DNA of 64,000 nt, taken from contig NZ_JAHCDA010000002.1 of NCBI RefSeq assembly GCF_018413645.1, positions 930,001 to 994,000 on the forward strand, in the 5' to 3' direction. Source of the stretch: Roseococcus pinisoli (lineage in GTDB: Bacteria; Pseudomonadota; Alphaproteobacteria; Acetobacterales; Acetobacteraceae). The notes beneath the pieces were generated by a model. It made no database searches and had not been told where the DNA came from. It saw only the letters and a program-made list of their open reading frames with translations. Both the position numbers and the translations under genes were made by a program. Shown one piece after another: positions 50,939 through 57,663 of the stretch (its first letter is position 1; each line of letters begins with the position of its first letter).

Positions 50939-51604
50939 TCAGCGGGCCGGAGGCGCAAGAAGGTCGGGCGACGGCGGTGGCGGCACCGCCGAGGGGGCCG
51001 GCGGCTCGGCGCTGCCGCCGGGCGCCGGCGCGACGGGCGCCAGAAGCTCCGGCGTCGGAAGCGCGGGAACGTCGCCGGGCGTCAGGCGATCCGGCGCCAA
51101 CAGCTCGGGCGGACGCGCGGCCGGCCCGCCGGTGGCAGGCACGGGCTGGGCGGGACGCGGCGCCACCCAGGGGATGGCCGGCGCACCCGCGAGCCGCGGG
51201 GGCTCCGGCGGGCGCGCGGGGATCGGCGGCTGGCCCGGCGCATCGGGCTCGGTCAGCGGGGCCGCGGCGCGGCCGACCGGGACCTCGTCATGAGAAGCGC
51301 CGCGCTCGGCCTCCAGCCGGCGGGTCAGCGCCTCGCGGGCCGCGAGGTCCGGACGCTCCGGGATGGGAGGCACGCTGGCGAGGTTGGGCGTTGGCCGGTC
51401 CATCCCCGGCGGCGGCAGCCGTGAATCCATGGCTGCCCCGGAAATGTCACGGCCCAGCGCCCGGGGGTTGATCTGAACGGGAGTCGCGCAGCCCGCCAGG
51501 GCGAGCAGCGGCAGGCCGGCCAGGAGCAGCCGGCCGCCAACCCGTGGCCGCGCTTGATCCGTGGCGGGGCGGTCACTACCCTTCTCCATGCTGGTTCGGG
51601 CCAT
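50939..51604 (-). CDS. Proline-rich lipoprotein
   Basis: A 221-residue lipoprotein of unknown function. The lipobox is LLALAGC (Cys near 38) after a basic N-terminal region. The mature part is rich in Pro, Ala and Arg, with recurring elements such as PELLAPDRLTPGDVPALP, PTPELLAPVAPAPG and SPDLLAPPAR, and no recognisable fold; it may be a disordered envelope spacer. The ATG at 51604 with AGGGAC upstream is preferred to one five codons later. It is divergent from phaC. Confidence 0.72.
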   Translation of the reverse strand: MARTSMEKGSDRPATDQARPRVGGRLLLAGLPLLALAGCATPVQINPRALGRDISGAAMDSRLPPPGMDRPTPNLASVPPIPERPDLAAREALTRRLEAERGASHDEVPVGRAAAPLTEPDAPGQPPIPARPPEPPRLAGAPAIPWVAPRPAQPVPATGGPAARPPELLAPDRLTPGDVPALPTPELLAPVAPAPGGSAEPPAPSAVPPPPSPDLLAPPAR

Positions 51605-51714
51605 GTCCCTGGTGTGAAGCGTCACGCGGCGTCCTCGAGGCGTCAGATGATTGATAGCGCCGCTGGACGTGAGCGCGAAAGGGCGCAAGGTCGTCTAAGG
51701 TCGGGAAGCAACAT

Positions 51715-53520
51715 ATGACGCAGTCGCCGGGCGGGAAACCGCCGGAGTACCAGGTACCCGACCCAGCGCTGGTTTCGCGCACCATGGCGGAGGTGGCGGA
51801 GCGCGGGCAGCGCATCGTCCAGGATTTCCTGAAGCGCCAGTCGACGACGGACGGGTTTTCCGCGCCGCTCAACATCGGCTCCGCCTTCATGGAAATGACG
51901 GCCAAGCTCATGACCAACCCGGCCGCGCTCATGCAGGCGCAGCTCGGCTTCTGGCAGGACTATCTGACCCTCTGGTCGAACACCACGCGCCGCATGTTGG
52001 GCGACCCGAATGTCGATGCGGTGATCGAGGAGGCCAAGGGGGACAAGCGCTTCAAGGATGAGGCCTGGCGCGAGAACGAGGTCTTCGACTTCATTCGCCA
52101 GTCCTACCTGCTCTCGGCCCGTTACTTCACCAATGCCGTGCATTCGGCCGACGGGCTTGATCCGAAGACTGCCCAGAAGGTGGATTTCTACACGCGGCAG
52201 TTCGTCGATGCGATGAGCCCCGCGAACTTCGTGATGACCAATCCCGAGGTCCTGCGGCGCACCGCGGAGACGGGTGGGACCAATCTCCTCAAGGGCCTGT
52301 CGAACCTGCTGGCCGACCTGGAGCGCGGCAAGGGCAAGCTGCGCATCCGCATGACGGACGACAGCAAGTTCAAGGTGGGCGAGAATATCGCGGTCACCCC
52401 GGGCAAGGTGGTGTTCCAGACGCCGCTGATGCAGCTCATCCAGTACAACCCGACCACCGAGAAGGTGCTGAAGCGCCCGCTGGTGATCTTCCCGCCCTGG
52501 ATCAACAAGTTCTACATCCTGGACCTGCGGCCCAAGAACAGCTTCATCCGCTGGGCGGTCGAGCAGGGCCACACGGTCTTCGTCGCCTCCTGGGTGAACC
52601 CGGACGAGGCGCTCGCCGAGAAGGGCTTCGACGACTACATGAAGGAGGGCGTGCTGGCCGCGCTCGACGCCATCGAAGCCGCGACCGGTGAGCGCGAGGT
52701 GAATGCCATCGGCTACTGCCTGGGCGGCACGCTGCTCGCCACCACCCTCGCCTACATGGCCACCAAGCGCGACAACCGCATCAAGTCGGCCACCTATTTC
52801 GTGACCATGACCGACTTCGAGGAAGCGGGCGAGCTTGGCGTCTTCATCGACGAGGAGCAGCTGAAGGCCCTGGAGGAGCGCATGGACAAGCGCGGCTTCC
52901 TCGATGGGCGCGAGATGGCGACGACCTTCAACATGCTGCGCGCGAACGACCTCATCTGGTCCTTCGTCGTGAACAACTATCTCCTCGGGCAGGACCCCTT
53001 CCCCTTCGACCTGCTCTACTGGAACGACGACAGCACACGCATGCCGGCGAAGATGCACAGCTTCTACCTGCGCCGCATGTACCAGGAGAACGACTTGGTG
53101 AAGCCGGGCTCGATCGAGCTCCTGGACACCAAGATCGACCTGCGGAAGGTGAAGGTTCCCACCTACATGATCTCGACGCGCGAGGATCACATCGCGCCGT
53201 GGAAGAGCACCTATCGCGGCACGCAGATCTTCTCGGGCCCGGTGCGCTTCGTGCTCGCAGCCTCTGGCCATATCGCGGGCGTCGTCAATCCACCGGATTC
53301 CGGGAAGTACAGCCACTGGGTGAACGAAGACCTGCCGCCCACCCCCGATGACTGGTTCGCCTCCGCGACGGAACTCGCAGGCAGCTGGTGGCCGGATTGG
53401 CAGCGCTGGGTCACCGGCCTCAACCGTGCCGAGGTCCCTGCCCGCCATCCCGGCGACGGCAAGCTCAAGGTCATCGAGGACGCGCCGGGCAGCTACGTCC
53501 GCGTGATGGCGATGGATTGA
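51715..53520 (+). CDS. phaC: Class I poly(3-hydroxyalkanoate) synthase
   Basis: A 601-residue PHA synthase that polymerises 3-hydroxyacyl-CoA into storage granules. The lipase-like box GYCLGGT holds the catalytic Cys near residue 334; the catalytic Asp is in TREDHIAPW (about 491) and the His in ASGHIAGVVNPP (about 521). ILDLRPKNSFIRWAVEQGHTVF and an N-terminal PhaC_N domain complete it. Length fits class I, which needs no PhaE partner. phaA, phaB and phasin genes are not adjacent. A strong stem-loop follows. Confidence 0.97.
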   Translation: MTQSPGGKPPEYQVPDPALVSRTMAEVAERGQRIVQDFLKRQSTTDGFSAPLNIGSAFMEMTAKLMTNPAALMQAQLGFWQDYLTLWSNTTRRMLGDPNVDAVIEEAKGDKRFKDEAWRENEVFDFIRQSYLLSARYFTNAVHSADGLDPKTAQKVDFYTRQFVDAMSPANFVMTNPEVLRRTAETGGTNLLKGLSNLLADLERGKGKLRIRMTDDSKFKVGENIAVTPGKVVFQTPLMQLIQYNPTTEKVLKRPLVIFPPWINKFYILDLRPKNSFIRWAVEQGHTVFVASWVNPDEALAEKGFDDYMKEGVLAALDAIEAATGEREVNAIGYCLGGTLLATTLAYMATKRDNRIKSATYFVTMTDFEEAGELGVFIDEEQLKALEERMDKRGFLDGREMATTFNMLRANDLIWSFVVNNYLLGQDPFPFDLLYWNDDSTRMPAKMHSFYLRRMYQENDLVKPGSIELLDTKIDLRKVKVPTYMISTREDHIAPWKSTYRGTQIFSGPVRFVLAASGHIAGVVNPPDSGKYSHWVNEDLPPTPDDWFASATELAGSWWPDWQRWVTGLNRAEVPARHPGDGKLKVIEDAPGSYVRVMAMD

Positions 53521-53528
53521 AAGAGGGA

Positions 53529-53558
53529 GTTCCCACTGGCCTCCGGGCCGGTGGGAAC
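53529..53558. terminator. Bidirectional terminator between phaC and the lipoprotein cluster
   Basis: GTTCCCACTGGC and GCCGGTGGGAAC form a 12-bp stem with one T-G wobble and a 6-base loop. It lies 8 bp after the phaC stop and 4 bp from the stop of the convergent lipoprotein gene. Confidence 0.7.
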
Positions 53559-53562
53559 GATC

Positions 53563-54192
53563 TCAGCGGTCCGTGCGGCCGCCCATGCCGGAGGTGGTGA
53601 CCCCGGAATCCATGAATTCGGAGGATACGCGCTGGTTGATCCGCCCGTCGGACTGCCGCCGCACGACCTCGTCGCGCAGGGCCGGCAGGGTCAGGGCCGT
53701 ATCCGGGAACGGACCCGGCTCGCGCAGGCGGCTCATCGCCGGCCGGTCGGTGTCGCGGAAGTCAGGCCCGGTCAGCGCCCGGCTGGCGGCCGGCACATCC
53801 CCATTGGTCAGCGCACGCGACGCGGCGAGGAGTGCCGGCACGGTGGTGTCGGGCGAGGCGTCCGGCGCGATGGCCAGGGCCTGCCTCCCCTCCTGCACGC
53901 CGCGCCGCAGGCCGAAGAGGAAGGAATCGGGGATATTCTCCAGGCGGTGGCCCGGACGCGTCTCACCACCCAGCCACTCCAGCCGCGCGATGGCGAGGGC
54001 CGTGTGCTCGGGATGGCCTTCGAGGCCGGCACCGGCGCGATCGAAGTCGGACACCGCATGGTTCAGGACGGACAGCAGCGGCTGCGCGACCAGACCACCC
54101 GCCAGTTCGACGGGCGGTTCAGGCGGCGGCGGCCGCGTCATCTCCGCACAGGCGGCGAGAAGCAGCGCCGCTGCGAGCGGCAGGACCCTCAT
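53563..54192 (-). CDS. Lipoprotein, fourth and most diverged member of tandem cluster
   Basis: A 209-residue lipoprotein with lipobox LLLAACAE (Cys near 15). I do not recognise a named family. Its middle aligns by eye with the two genes upstream: ALAIARLEWL corresponds to their RAIAxMEFLA, ALAIAPDASPDTTVPALLAASRALTNGDVPAAS to their ALGI.PGA.PQAV.DSLY..SRAL..G..DAA. The C-terminus is longer and ends in Gly/Ser/Met-rich residues. The start overlaps the upstream stop codon as ATGA. Confidence 0.75.
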   Translation of the reverse strand: MRVLPLAAALLLAACAEMTRPPPPEPPVELAGGLVAQPLLSVLNHAVSDFDRAGAGLEGHPEHTALAIARLEWLGGETRPGHRLENIPDSFLFGLRRGVQEGRQALAIAPDASPDTTVPALLAASRALTNGDVPAASRALTGPDFRDTDRPAMSRLREPGPFPDTALTLPALRDEVVRRQSDGRINQRVSSEFMDSGVTTSGMGGRTDR

Positions 54193-54755
54193 ATTCTCGG
54201 GCGGCCGGTGAAGGGGAAATTGGACTCGGACTGAACGCGCGATGCGGCATCGGCGGCGAGCGCCGTCTGCGGCAAGGGCGGCAGTGCGGCCAGGCGAGCC
54301 AGCACGGCCGCGCCGCCCGGCGGAATGAGCGTCGGCGAAAGCGCAGCGGCGGCTGCGGCCTGATCGCCGGCGCGCATCGCCCGCCAGACGGTATAGAGGC
54401 CATCGACGACCGGCTGTGCCGGTTGCCCTTCGGGAATGCCCAGCGCCCGCCGCCATTCGGCGCGGGCCTGCTGGAGACGCACCGGCAACAGAGGATCGCG
54501 CTGCTGGAAGCGCGGGTCGGTCGGCAGTGACACCGCGAGGAATTCCATATCCGCGATGGCGCGGGCGGCCTCGCCGGGCCGTCCCTGGAGCCCGGCCTGG
54601 TTGGCGAAGGCGAAGGCGGCACGGGAGACGGCGGCGCGGGTGGGGTCCCCCGCGCCTTCGATCGAATCACGCGGCAACCGCGCTGATTCGGAGGTGGCGA
54701 ACCCCTCCGCGCAACCTGCGAGGAGCAACGTCAGGAGGAGGGGACGCCGCTTCAT
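54189..54755 (-). CDS. Lipoprotein, tandem cluster member
   Basis: A 188-residue lipoprotein with lipobox LLLAGCAE (Cys near 15). After it come LPRDSIEGAGDPTRAAVSRAAFAF, RAIADMEFLAVSLP, EWRRALGIPEGQPAQPVVDGLY, and RLAALPPLPQT, all shared with the next gene upstream. It is probably a helical periplasmic protein tethered to a membrane; no function is known to me. It starts one base after the upstream gene ends. Confidence 0.78.
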   Translation of the reverse strand: MKRRPLLLTLLLAGCAEGFATSESARLPRDSIEGAGDPTRAAVSRAAFAFANQAGLQGRPGEAARAIADMEFLAVSLPTDPRFQQRDPLLPVRLQQARAEWRRALGIPEGQPAQPVVDGLYTVWRAMRAGDQAAAAAALSPTLIPPGGAAVLARLAALPPLPQTALAADAASRVQSESNFPFTGRPRI

Positions 54756-54756
54756 C

Positions 54757-55320
54757 TCAGAGCGTCCGCTGCGGCGTGGTGGTGCGCAGCGCTTCCTGGG
54801 CCGTGGCTGCCGCGGCGGCCGTCTGCGGAAGACGCGGCAGCGCGGCGAGGCGGGTCAAGGTGGCAGCGCCACCCTGCGGGAACAGGCCATTCGGCAGCGA
54901 GGAGGCTGCCGCGTCCCGCTGGCCGGCCTCGAGCGCGCGGCTCGCCTGGTAGAGCGAGTCGATGACCGCCTGCGGGTCGGCCCCCGGCGCGATGCCGAGC
55001 GCGCCGCGCCATTCCTGGCGGGCCGTGAGGAGCTGTGGCCCCAGCGTCGGCGAGGCATTGGAGAAGTTGCTGGCGCGCGGCAGCGTCGCGGCAAGGAACT
55101 CCATCTGCGCGATGGCGCGCGCGCCCGAGGCAGGCTGGCCGGCGGCCGGGGTGCGCTCGCTGAAGACAGCATTCGTGGTCAGGATGGCGGACCGCGTCGG
55201 GTCACCGGCGCCGACCACGGCGTCGCGAGGCAGGACCGCCGATTCGCCCGCAGGAGCGGTAAGAAGAGGTCCCGAGCAGGCCGCCAACAAAGGCAGAGCC
55301 AGGAGAAGCGCACGGTTCAT
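54757..55320 (-). CDS. Lipoprotein, tandem cluster member
   Basis: A 187-residue lipoprotein with lipobox LPLLAACSG (Cys near 15). Segments VLPRDAVVGAGDPTRSAILT, RAIAQMEFLAATLP, EWRGALGIAPGADPQAVIDSLY and RLAALPRLPQT match the downstream neighbour closely, and the whole proteins are almost the same length. The match makes an ancient tandem duplication the simplest explanation. Function unknown. Confidence 0.78.
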   Translation of the reverse strand: MNRALLLALPLLAACSGPLLTAPAGESAVLPRDAVVGAGDPTRSAILTTNAVFSERTPAAGQPASGARAIAQMEFLAATLPRASNFSNASPTLGPQLLTARQEWRGALGIAPGADPQAVIDSLYQASRALEAGQRDAAASSLPNGLFPQGGAATLTRLAALPRLPQTAAAAATAQEALRTTTPQRTL

Positions 55321-55416
55321 CAAGTCGTCCCTATGTAAAGACCGGCAGATCACGCGCCGATCATCTCATGAATATTTAGAGCAATTGGCCCGGAAAGTCA
55401 CCCAGCACCGCAAGGT

Positions 55417-56004
55417 TCAGGGATGCGCGCCGCCGCCGCCTCCGCTACCGCCTCCGCCGCTACCGCCGCCGATGCCGTTCATCCTCTCCGTGTCGATACG
55501 GAGAAGCTCCCTCTCCATCAGCGCGCTGGCATTGCGCGTCGCGGGCAGATCGATCGGGCCGGAGAGGCGTGCCAGCGTCAGCGTCGGCTGGGTGAAGACC
55601 GCGGGCGAAAGCACCGGCGTCGCCTGGGCCTCGAAGGCGCGGGAGGCGCCGACAAACCCGTCCACGACCGCCTGGGGCGTGGCGCCCGGCGCAACGCCGA
55701 AAGCCGCGTGAAGTTCCCGCCGCGAGGCCTCCAACGCCGAGGCGGTGATGGGCGTGTATTCCGCCCATCGCACGTCCCATCGATAATCCGCCGCCAGATA
55801 TTCCATCAGCGCCGCCGCCCTGGCTCGGTCGGCCGGCAGGCTCTGATGGTTGAAGGTAAAGGCGGTGGTCAGGATGGCCGAGCGCATCGGGTCCGCCGCG
55901 ATGGGCGTGACGTCGGCGGGAAGCCGCGCGCTCGGCGGGAGGGGCCCGGTGGCGCAGGCCGCCAGGGGCACCATCAGCAAGACGGTTCGTACGGCGTTCC
56001 TCAT
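55417..56004 (-). CDS. Lipoprotein with Gly-rich tail, tandem cluster member
   Basis: A 195-residue lipoprotein with lipobox VPLAACAT (Cys near 17). It shares the family pattern: RLPADVTPIAADPMRSAILTTAF, RAAALMEYLAADY, HAAFGVAPGATPQAVVDGF and ARLSGPIDLPAT. The last 20 residues are a Gly/Ser tail (GGGSGGGGSGGGGG then AHP) not found in the other three. It is first in the run of four, 38 bp after the carbonic anhydrase gene, and 96 bp ahead of the next member. Confidence 0.77.
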   Translation of the reverse strand: MRNAVRTVLLMVPLAACATGPLPPSARLPADVTPIAADPMRSAILTTAFTFNHQSLPADRARAAALMEYLAADYRWDVRWAEYTPITASALEASRRELHAAFGVAPGATPQAVVDGFVGASRAFEAQATPVLSPAVFTQPTLTLARLSGPIDLPATRNASALMERELLRIDTERMNGIGGGSGGGGSGGGGGAHP

Positions 56005-56042: not shown

Positions 56043-56576
56043 TTACGAAGTGGAACGCAACGAAGCGCGATGCCGTCCCGACAGCTCCACGTAATGTGGC
56101 GCGGTCGTGTCGAAGTTCGCCCGCTGCTCCACCGTGAGGACGCGGACCAGCTTCGCAGGGTTGCCCATCCAGAGCTCGAGCGAGCCCACGCGCTTGCCCG
56201 GCGGCAATACGGAACCGGCGGCAAGGACGCCGCCTTCCTCGATCACGGCGCCGTCCAGCACGGTCGCGCCCATGCCGACGAAGGCGCGATTGGCCAGCGT
56301 ACAGGCGTGGATGATCGCCGCGTGACCGACTGTAACATCGTCGCCGATGACGGTGGGGAAGCTGCCCGAATTCACGTGGATGATCGTGCCGTCCTGGATG
56401 TTCGTCCGGGCGCCGATGCGGATGAAGTTGGAATCACCGCGCAGCACGCAGTGATACCAGATGTTCGACTTCTCGCCGATCTCCACGTCGCCGATGACGG
56501 CAGCCGTCGGCGCTACCCAGGCACGCTCGTCGACCTTCGGCAGCTTGCCCTCGAAGGGATAGAAAGGTCCGTTCAT
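56043..56576 (-). CDS. Gamma-carbonic anhydrase family protein
   Basis: A 177-residue left-handed beta-helix protein of the gamma-carbonic anhydrase (YrdA/PaaY) group. The metal-binding His residues are in TIIHVNSG and [12 protein letters not shown], and hexapeptide-repeat turns run through [22 protein letters not shown]. It binds zinc or iron; whether it hydrates CO2 or acts otherwise is not evident. Its start overlaps the argC stop codon by 4 bp. Confidence 0.92.
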
Positions 56577-57535
56577 TCCGCAGCGATCCCCAGCGGCAGC
56601 GCCGCATCCACGTCGATACCCAGCATCAGGCCGAGATTCTGCACGGCCGCGCCCGAGGCACCCTTCCCCAGATTATCCAGCTTCGCCACCAGCACCGCCT
56701 GGTTGTGCGCGGCATTCCCGTAGACCCGCAGTTCCAGCATGTTGGAGCCGTTCAGCGAGAGGGGCTCCAGGCGCTGGCCGCCATCGGCCGGCATCACCTT
56801 CACCCAGCCGGACTTCGCGTAGCGGGCAGCGAGGACGGCTTCGAGGTCCGCCGCCTTCGGGTTGCCGGGCAGAGCATCGAGATGCAGCGGGATGCTCACC
56901 AGCATGCCCTGCGCGAAGTTGCCGACGCTCGGCACGAAGATCGGGCGGACGGACAGCCCGCTGTAGAGCTGCAGCTCGGGGACGTGCTTGTGCTCGAGAC
57001 CCAGGCCGTAGAGGAAGAAGGGCGGCGCCGACTTCGTCTCCTCGAATTCCGCGATCATCGACTTGCCGCCGCCGGAATAGCCGGAGACTGCATTGACCGT
57101 GATCGGGGCGTCCTGCGGGATGATGCCCGCATCCACCAGCGGCCGCAGCAGGGCGATGCCACCCGTGGGATAGCAGCCCGGATTCGCCACGCGCTTGGCG
57201 GCAGCGATCTTGGCCGCATGCCCGTCGGTCAGCTCCGGGAAACCGAAGACCCAGTCGGGGTCGACCCGGTGCGCCGTGCTGGCGTCGAGCAGCTTCGGAG
57301 CCTTGTCGCCCATCTCGGCCGCGATGGCCGCGACCTCCTTCGCGCCGGTATCCGGCAGGCAGAGCACCACGGCGTCCACCTGCTCCATCAACCGGCGCTT
57401 GGCGGCCGGGTCCTTGCGGTCGGCGTCCGCGATCGAACGGATCTCGACCTGGGGATGGTTCGCAAGGCGCGCGCGGATCTGCAGCCCCGTCGTCCCGCTT
57501 TCGCCGTCGATGAAGATGCTCGGTTTCCTGGCCAT
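56573..57535 (-). CDS. argC: N-acetyl-gamma-glutamyl-phosphate reductase, short type
   Basis: A 320-residue ArgC of the shorter (type 2) group, which makes N-acetylglutamate semialdehyde in arginine synthesis. The nucleotide-binding start is [14 protein letters not shown], the catalytic Cys is in NPGCYPTGG near residue 120, and [16 protein letters not shown] follows. GGAGGG precedes the ATG. The leader holds two copies of a 9-base repeat. It is coupled to the carbonic anhydrase gene. Confidence 0.95.
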
Positions 57536-57576: not shown

Positions 57577-57616
57577 AAAAAACAAAAGGGGCGGATCCTT
57601 TCGGACCCGCCCCTTT
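57577..57616 (-). terminator. Intrinsic terminator of rplM-rpsI
   Basis: On the minus strand a 14-bp stem (with one G-T wobble) closes on a GAAA tetraloop (57585-57616) and is followed by TGTTTTTT. It lies 47 bp after the rpsI stop codon. This is a textbook Rho-independent terminator, the only one in the window with a full T run. Confidence 0.93.
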
Positions 57617-57663
57617 CGGATAGCCGGCATGCAGGCCGGGCGTGACGCCCGGTCCGCAGGGCG

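Follow-up and report, generated by a model that had tools for sequence, protein, structure and literature searches.

Do the products of four adjacent lipoprotein genes belong to a single envelope machine, or does each serve as a separate adaptor? The question is posed by a 64,000-nucleotide (nt) stretch of the genome of Roseococcus pinisoli, which is related to the acetic acid bacteria (contig NZ_JAHCDA010000002.1, positions 930,001 to 994,000; hereafter, the window), in which positions 53563-56004 of the minus strand hold four consecutive lipoprotein open reading frames (ORFs), named A, B, C, and D in transcription order, with a fixed gene order and group-specific residues. These four proteins constitute one homologous family, with significant sequence or profile similarity linking all members. 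Unnamed, lineage-restricted families are common in envelope biology, and this one, with its conserved array of paralogs, deserves a family model of its own.

Four lipoproteins of one family

An initial annotation, made from the sequence alone, had described the array as four consecutive minus-strand genes for lipoproteins of 187-209 residues, and this description is accurate, with a lipobox in each product. Judged by reading, all four window proteins have the N-terminal signal peptide and lipobox Cys of type II signal-peptide lipoproteins, the lipobox ending in LAAC in A, B, and D and in LAGC in C. The likeness to such lipoproteins extends across the family, where the lipobox Cys is present in 71 of 72 aligned rows (the remaining row has a gap), but no Pfam or NCBIfam lipoprotein family matches the A-D family above its cut-off, and Pfam, NCBIfam, PHROGs, and PDB sequences yielded no match above a cut-off for the lipoproteins tried. 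The A and B genes are 96 nt apart; between the B stop and the C start the gap is 1 nt, and the D start overlaps the C stop by 4 nt, a packing of B, C, and D that would allow coupled translation.

Homology of the four proteins is evident from pairwise comparison. BLASTP links A to B (E = 6e-22), B to D (2e-09), A to D (7e-07), and C to D (3e-04), and C as query in its own genome retrieves both B (3.5e-37) and, less strongly, A (5.8e-15). D, only 25-28% identical to A, B, and C, is the most diverged of the four, as had been noticed initially. Comparison of ortholog profiles (seven sequences each) with hhalign, carried out for four pairs, gave E-values of 2e-12 for D-A, 2.3e-15 for D-B, 2.1e-12 for D-C, and 1.2e-22 for A-C. 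To control for the Ala/Leu-rich composition and for signal peptides, 21 mature proteins of types A, B, and C were combined into a profile, which was run against residue shuffles. All 7 D proteins scored 45-64 bits with this profile, a fifth copy of the family from the same genome scored 76.6 bits, and the best of 2,400 shuffles (2,100 derived from D and 300 from the fifth copy, with 2,314 reported) reached 8.1 bits. For this control, each sequence was trimmed at its first Cys; in one D row (L063) that residue sits inside the signal peptide, and this row, keeping part of the signal peptide, scored lowest (45.1 bits). A chance resemblance of GC-rich, Ala-rich lipoproteins, to which the Ala- and Leu-rich composition of all four proteins and the low identity of D might point, is refuted by this composition-preserving control and further opposed by hhalign E-values of about 2e-12 or better and by the same predicted helix order in C and D, and its probability is practically nil.

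Thus, the proposal that the array represents one diverged, unnamed family is borne out by profile alignment, including that of D with the others. Of the motifs proposed by eye, ME(F/Y)LA or LEWLG is present in all four proteins; DP(T/M)R(S/A)A reads DPMRSA in A, DPTRSA in B, and DPTRAA in C, but D has AQPLLSV at this place; and ALGI/AFGV...PQAV is clear in A and B, whereas C (PAQPV) and D (PDTTV) have degenerate forms of it.

The fifth copy, overlooked in the initial annotation, adjoins hisZ (G000:C7:147589-148098) and is unlinked to the array, bringing the family copies in the genome of the window to five.

Distribution of the family

Matches to C at E 0.001 or better were found in 25 of 60 genomes, and a 29-row profile identified the family in 109 of 299 genomes of the order, distributed over 26 of 65 genera (the genome of the window being included in both counts). 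All 109 positive genomes bear one and the same family code, and they carry 1-9 copies each, so that a family model would name 347 matches in these genomes (per-genome counts summed). The class sample (385 genomes) and the phylum sample (398 genomes) each contained, besides the genome of the window, one match that was judged false: at one of the two sites, other, longer ORFs run through the site, and the other match covers little more than the signal peptide. Among the sampled genomes, the family was therefore found only in Acetobacteraceae, broadly defined. When named genomes were scanned with one short pattern and a 9-row profile, which gives a lower bound, at least 15 loci were recovered from Roseococcus, Rubritepida, Siccirubricoccus, and other Acetobacteraceae or Rhodospirillales; the proteins of two same-genus genomes are the same as those in the Roseococcus and Rubritepida records, which places the window in that group.

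Old duplications kept in a fixed order

In a quick tree of 88 rows, the window proteins A, C, and D fall into starred groups with orthologs from many genomes of the genus. From the alignment, exact duplicates and two locus-end fragments were dropped; the tree leaves out the second-set rows of L063-L068, L071, and L075-L077, which are mostly duplicates of included loci (L076 and L077 were left out although they have no duplicate there), and it covers family matches with a fetched locus. Across the genus, each of A, B, C, and D clusters as its own group, and on this phylogenetic evidence, the duplications that gave rise to them are old. Siccirubricoccus and uncultured relatives also have D-like and B/C-like members, indicating that some of the duplications predate the genus.

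Gene order agrees across the genus. By group-profile assignment, the order A>B>C>D is found in all 11 same-genus loci with four members (in one of them, A is cut by the contig end), and D is last in the 5 other same-genus loci where it was seen. B is strongly diverged in two of the eleven loci, scoring 104-105 bits vs 303-333. In L017 (971-1498) and L018 (983-1498), both from the same genus, the copy found in the B position is on a branch of length 1.04, the longest inner branch among the genus copies at the array locus. Three Siccirubricoccus species (L069:6223-6705, L070:6187-6708, and L072:5404-5934) carry members of another far-diverged branch, whose C-terminal half is shortened; in L069 and L072, this copy directly follows a panE-like gene.

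Within the genus, A-D are under whole-gene purifying selection. The ratio of nonsynonymous to synonymous substitution rates (dN/dS), calculated over whole genes by the simple Nei-Gojobori method with nine sequences per group, was at most 0.66 in all 144 within-group pairs, with medians of 0.30 (A), 0.32 (B), 0.29 (C), and 0.46 (D). The same 144 pairwise values give no sign of gene-wide diversifying selection, in a test that addresses whole genes rather than single sites. The initial suggestion that repeated duplication reflects selection for variants with different partners or surfaces is thus sustained in part: the separate old groups and their fixed group-specific positions agree with it, and different partners for the paralogs are plausible, but the dN/dS values do not show the variants being driven apart.

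The C-terminal tail of A is likewise conserved. This tail is rich in Gly and Ser, and 11 of the 16 A-type rows of the genus have Ala/Ser-His-Pro at its end (1 of the 5 other rows is cut by its locus end); six A orthologs, 57-72% identical, keep the tail. The tail noted initially is therefore real and retained in the genus, but the role then suggested for it, as a linker or surface-display segment, found no support.

Predicted structure and conserved positions

AlphaFold2 models of C (predicted local distance difference test [pLDDT] score, 90.7; predicted template modeling [pTM] score, 0.85) and D (pLDDT, 87.6; pTM, 0.80) are both confident and all-alpha, with the same order of helices. The models, whose input alignments shared rows and whose likeness was judged by helix order, support one all-helical fold for C and D, and the possibility that members of the array adopt different folds finds no backing in these predictions. 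Foldseek searches with the two models found no solved relative at E 0.001 or better, and up-and-down four-helix bundles, such as the FAT domain or those of the cytochrome b562 type, gave no match at this level either; resemblance to such bundles may reflect only a common arrangement of helices. The FCD domain (PF07729), the all-helical domain of GntR regulators, had weak matches (E 0.0039-0.21) in 3 of 10 scanned proteins, all D-type proteins of Siccirubricoccus, and 4 of 49 rows matched it at E up to 1. With 18.1, 16.9, and 12.4 bits vs a curated cut-off of 24.3, these proteins do not qualify as FCD members, and the four window proteins had no match to this domain.

Across the 72 rows, the most conserved positions (C numbering) include Cys15 and P38 (71 rows each), E71 and L155 (70 each), E100 (69), and P60, R102, and P162 (68 each); R125 is kept in 55. 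When the four groups were compared column by column (seven rows each), helix 2 proved the richest of all helices: of its 20 columns, 4 are shared and 8 are group-specific, the other helices having 1-4 group-specific columns each out of 9-17; R102 misses the shared mark in this comparison. At position 69, for example, A has Leu, B has Gln, C has Asp, and D has Arg, each group showing its residue in 6-7 of its 7 rows. The group-specific fixed positions, commonest in helix 2, would fit different roles of the paralogs.

Proposed role of the paralogs

The best reading of these observations, which we put forward tentatively, is that A-D are old, envelope-anchored helical modules, probably located in the outer membrane and facing the periplasm, with separate conserved roles. 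In Escherichia coli, the residue following the lipobox Cys governs lipoprotein sorting (the +2 rule). This residue is Ala, Ser, Ala, and Ala in A, B, C, and D, respectively, and because none of them is Asp, we infer by analogy that the proteins are lipid-anchored and sorted to the outer membrane. The lipid anchor would hold them there facing the periplasm, and the helical bundle of each protein would sit near the membrane surface. As old duplicates in a fixed order, the four probably each have their own job, and the bundles would act as non-interchangeable modules, either as subunits of one envelope assembly or as parallel adaptors for different clients. Helix 2, which combines the most shared with the most group-specific columns, would be the likely place of partner recognition, and the near-invariant charged residues E71, E100, R102, and R125 might form a common structural or binding core. 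The tight packing of B, C, and D would help to hold the proteins in ratio. A more specific version is unlikely. In it, an undescribed periplasmic assembly, anchored in the outer membrane and confined to this branch of Acetobacteraceae, would be built from one new family of helical-bundle lipoproteins, with A-D as its non-interchangeable subunits and helix 2 setting paralog identity.

Several observations weigh against separate conserved roles or against parts of the proposed mechanism. The B group, with a support of 91, is not starred, and 28 of the 85 inner branches of the tree are open forks; moreover, A, B, or C is missing from some same-genus loci. The singling out of helix 2 derives from counts of sequence columns, and R102 is replaced by His in 4 of 72 rows. 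Low model confidence is limited to residues about 1-20 at the N termini of C and D, and thus, the models give no hint of a tether that is long and flexible. In the wider lineage, the lipoproteins are dispensable, given the variable copy number and the 190 of 299 genomes of the order without a match. Finally, family copies also occur next to hisZ or next to a panE-like gene, a placement that speaks against a strict complex of four subunits in every host.

The main rivals are dosage copies and surface proteins. According to the former explanation, which we consider somewhat unlikely, the array contains a dosage-type lipoprotein subject to lineage-specific birth and death, the copies being largely interchangeable and all four doing the same. 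The range of 1-9 copies across the 109 positive genomes fits this explanation, as do genomes with a single copy located beside argC and a carbonic-anhydrase-like gene (L029, L031, and L087, from other genera). However, recent tandem duplicates would group by genome, whereas A, B, C, and D are kept as separate groups in a fixed order across the genus and their group-specific residues are fixed. The other rival, that the proteins are surface-exposed helical-bundle lipoproteins serving as adhesins or as decoys for phages or grazers in the manner of Borrelia OspC/Vsp, is improbable. OspC/Vsp proteins are antigenic variants, whereas the members of the array are conserved orthologs; OspC/Vsp have no sequence match to the window family, and the structural Z-score lies in the uninformative range.

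Genomic neighborhoods

The old, separately conserved modules that we favor differ from a further explanation, in which the lipoproteins serve the pathway of their neighbors, that is, polyhydroxyalkanoate (PHA) granules through phaC, or arginine and bicarbonate metabolism through argC and the carbonic-anhydrase-like gene. The neighbors were identified correctly in the initial annotation, with the reservation that the carbonic-anhydrase-like product scores 170.7 bits with NF050158, under the cut-off of 250, so that its enzyme identity is not certain, even though the gene travels with argC in several genera. Among 27 loci, a set that includes the hisZ-linked copy from the genome of the window, the lipoprotein has both argC and the carbonic-anhydrase-like gene beside it in 7, argC alone in 1, phaC alone in 1, hisZ in 5, a panE-like gene in 3, and none of these in 10; two of the loci with argC and the carbonic-anhydrase-like gene, L087 and L102, also contain phaC. 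In the 15 named loci, which extend 0.6 to 7 kb further per side than the 27 and are in some cases cut by contig ends, argC is present in 6, and the carbonic-anhydrase-like gene and phaC are present in 9 each. The gene order argC, carbonic anhydrase, lipoproteins, phaC recurs in other genera, but it is also found without the lipoproteins: in L115, phaC stands with rpsI, argC, and the carbonic-anhydrase-like gene, and a family lipoprotein is lacking, showing that the block exists with and without them. Twelve phaC loci from family-negative genomes, L115 being one, revealed no hidden diverged member when matches down to E 1 were considered; in the other 11, argC is absent from the vicinity of phaC.

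In favor of a role in the neighboring pathways, the same neighborhood occurs in several genera, and PhaC_N matches are found in 109 of 109 lipoprotein-positive vs 49 of 190 negative genomes of the order sample. This co-occurrence, however, is uncorrected for kinship or genome size and carries little weight as evidence, other copies reside beside hisZ or a panE-like gene, L115 keeps the block without a family member, and, as established in cell biology, cytosolic granules and enzymes are out of reach of an exported lipoprotein. Taken together, these points render such a role highly improbable.

Flanking genes and other features

The features of the array and its surroundings are compiled in Table 1. 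The ends of D and phaC are 42 nt apart, and the inverted repeat between them is a possible shared transcription end of the two genes; it is not listed by the terminator scan, which requires a T run. The hairpin upstream of argC is a possible upstream limit of a transcription unit extending from argC to D. The scan found 2 sites in the region vs a mean of 2.2 in shuffles, a count that by itself is not significant.

Table 1. Coordinates of the lipoprotein array and flanking features (positions in the window)
Feature	Coordinates	Strand	Basis and remarks
Terminator-like hairpin, 16 pairs + T run	57583-57618	-	Terminator scan; between rpsI and argC
argC, TIGR01851 type	56573-57535	-	TIGR01851 above cut-off; upstream neighbor
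Gamma-carbonic-anhydrase-like hexapeptide protein	56043-56576	-	Pfam Hexapep; upstream neighbor of A
Lipoprotein A, 195 aa	55417-56004	-	ORF and translation; first of the array; Gly/Ser-rich C-terminal tail, end AHP
Lipoprotein B, 187 aa	54757-55320	-	ATG start used (mechanical ORF list extends upstream to GTG at 55353)
Lipoprotein C, 188 aa	54189-54755	-	ORF and translation
Lipoprotein D, 209 aa	53563-54192	-	Most diverged; Pro-rich segment after the lipobox Cys
Inverted repeat, 12 + 12 bases	53529-53558		Read by eye; between D and phaC
phaC, class I PHA synthase	51715-53520	+	TIGR01838 above cut-off; convergent with D

In the order sample, reaction-centre (photosynthetic) genes are missing from the genome of the window and from three same-genus genomes and are present in eight same-genus genomes.

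Divergent from phaC, positions 50939-51607 of the minus strand encode another Pro-rich lipoprotein-like protein, which has a signal peptide ending in ALAGC and matches nothing in Pfam or NCBIfam at E 1e-5. The gene is far less conserved than the flanking phaC and aminotransferase genes, and related ORFs, with 48-73% identity, are present in 8 of the 15 named loci.
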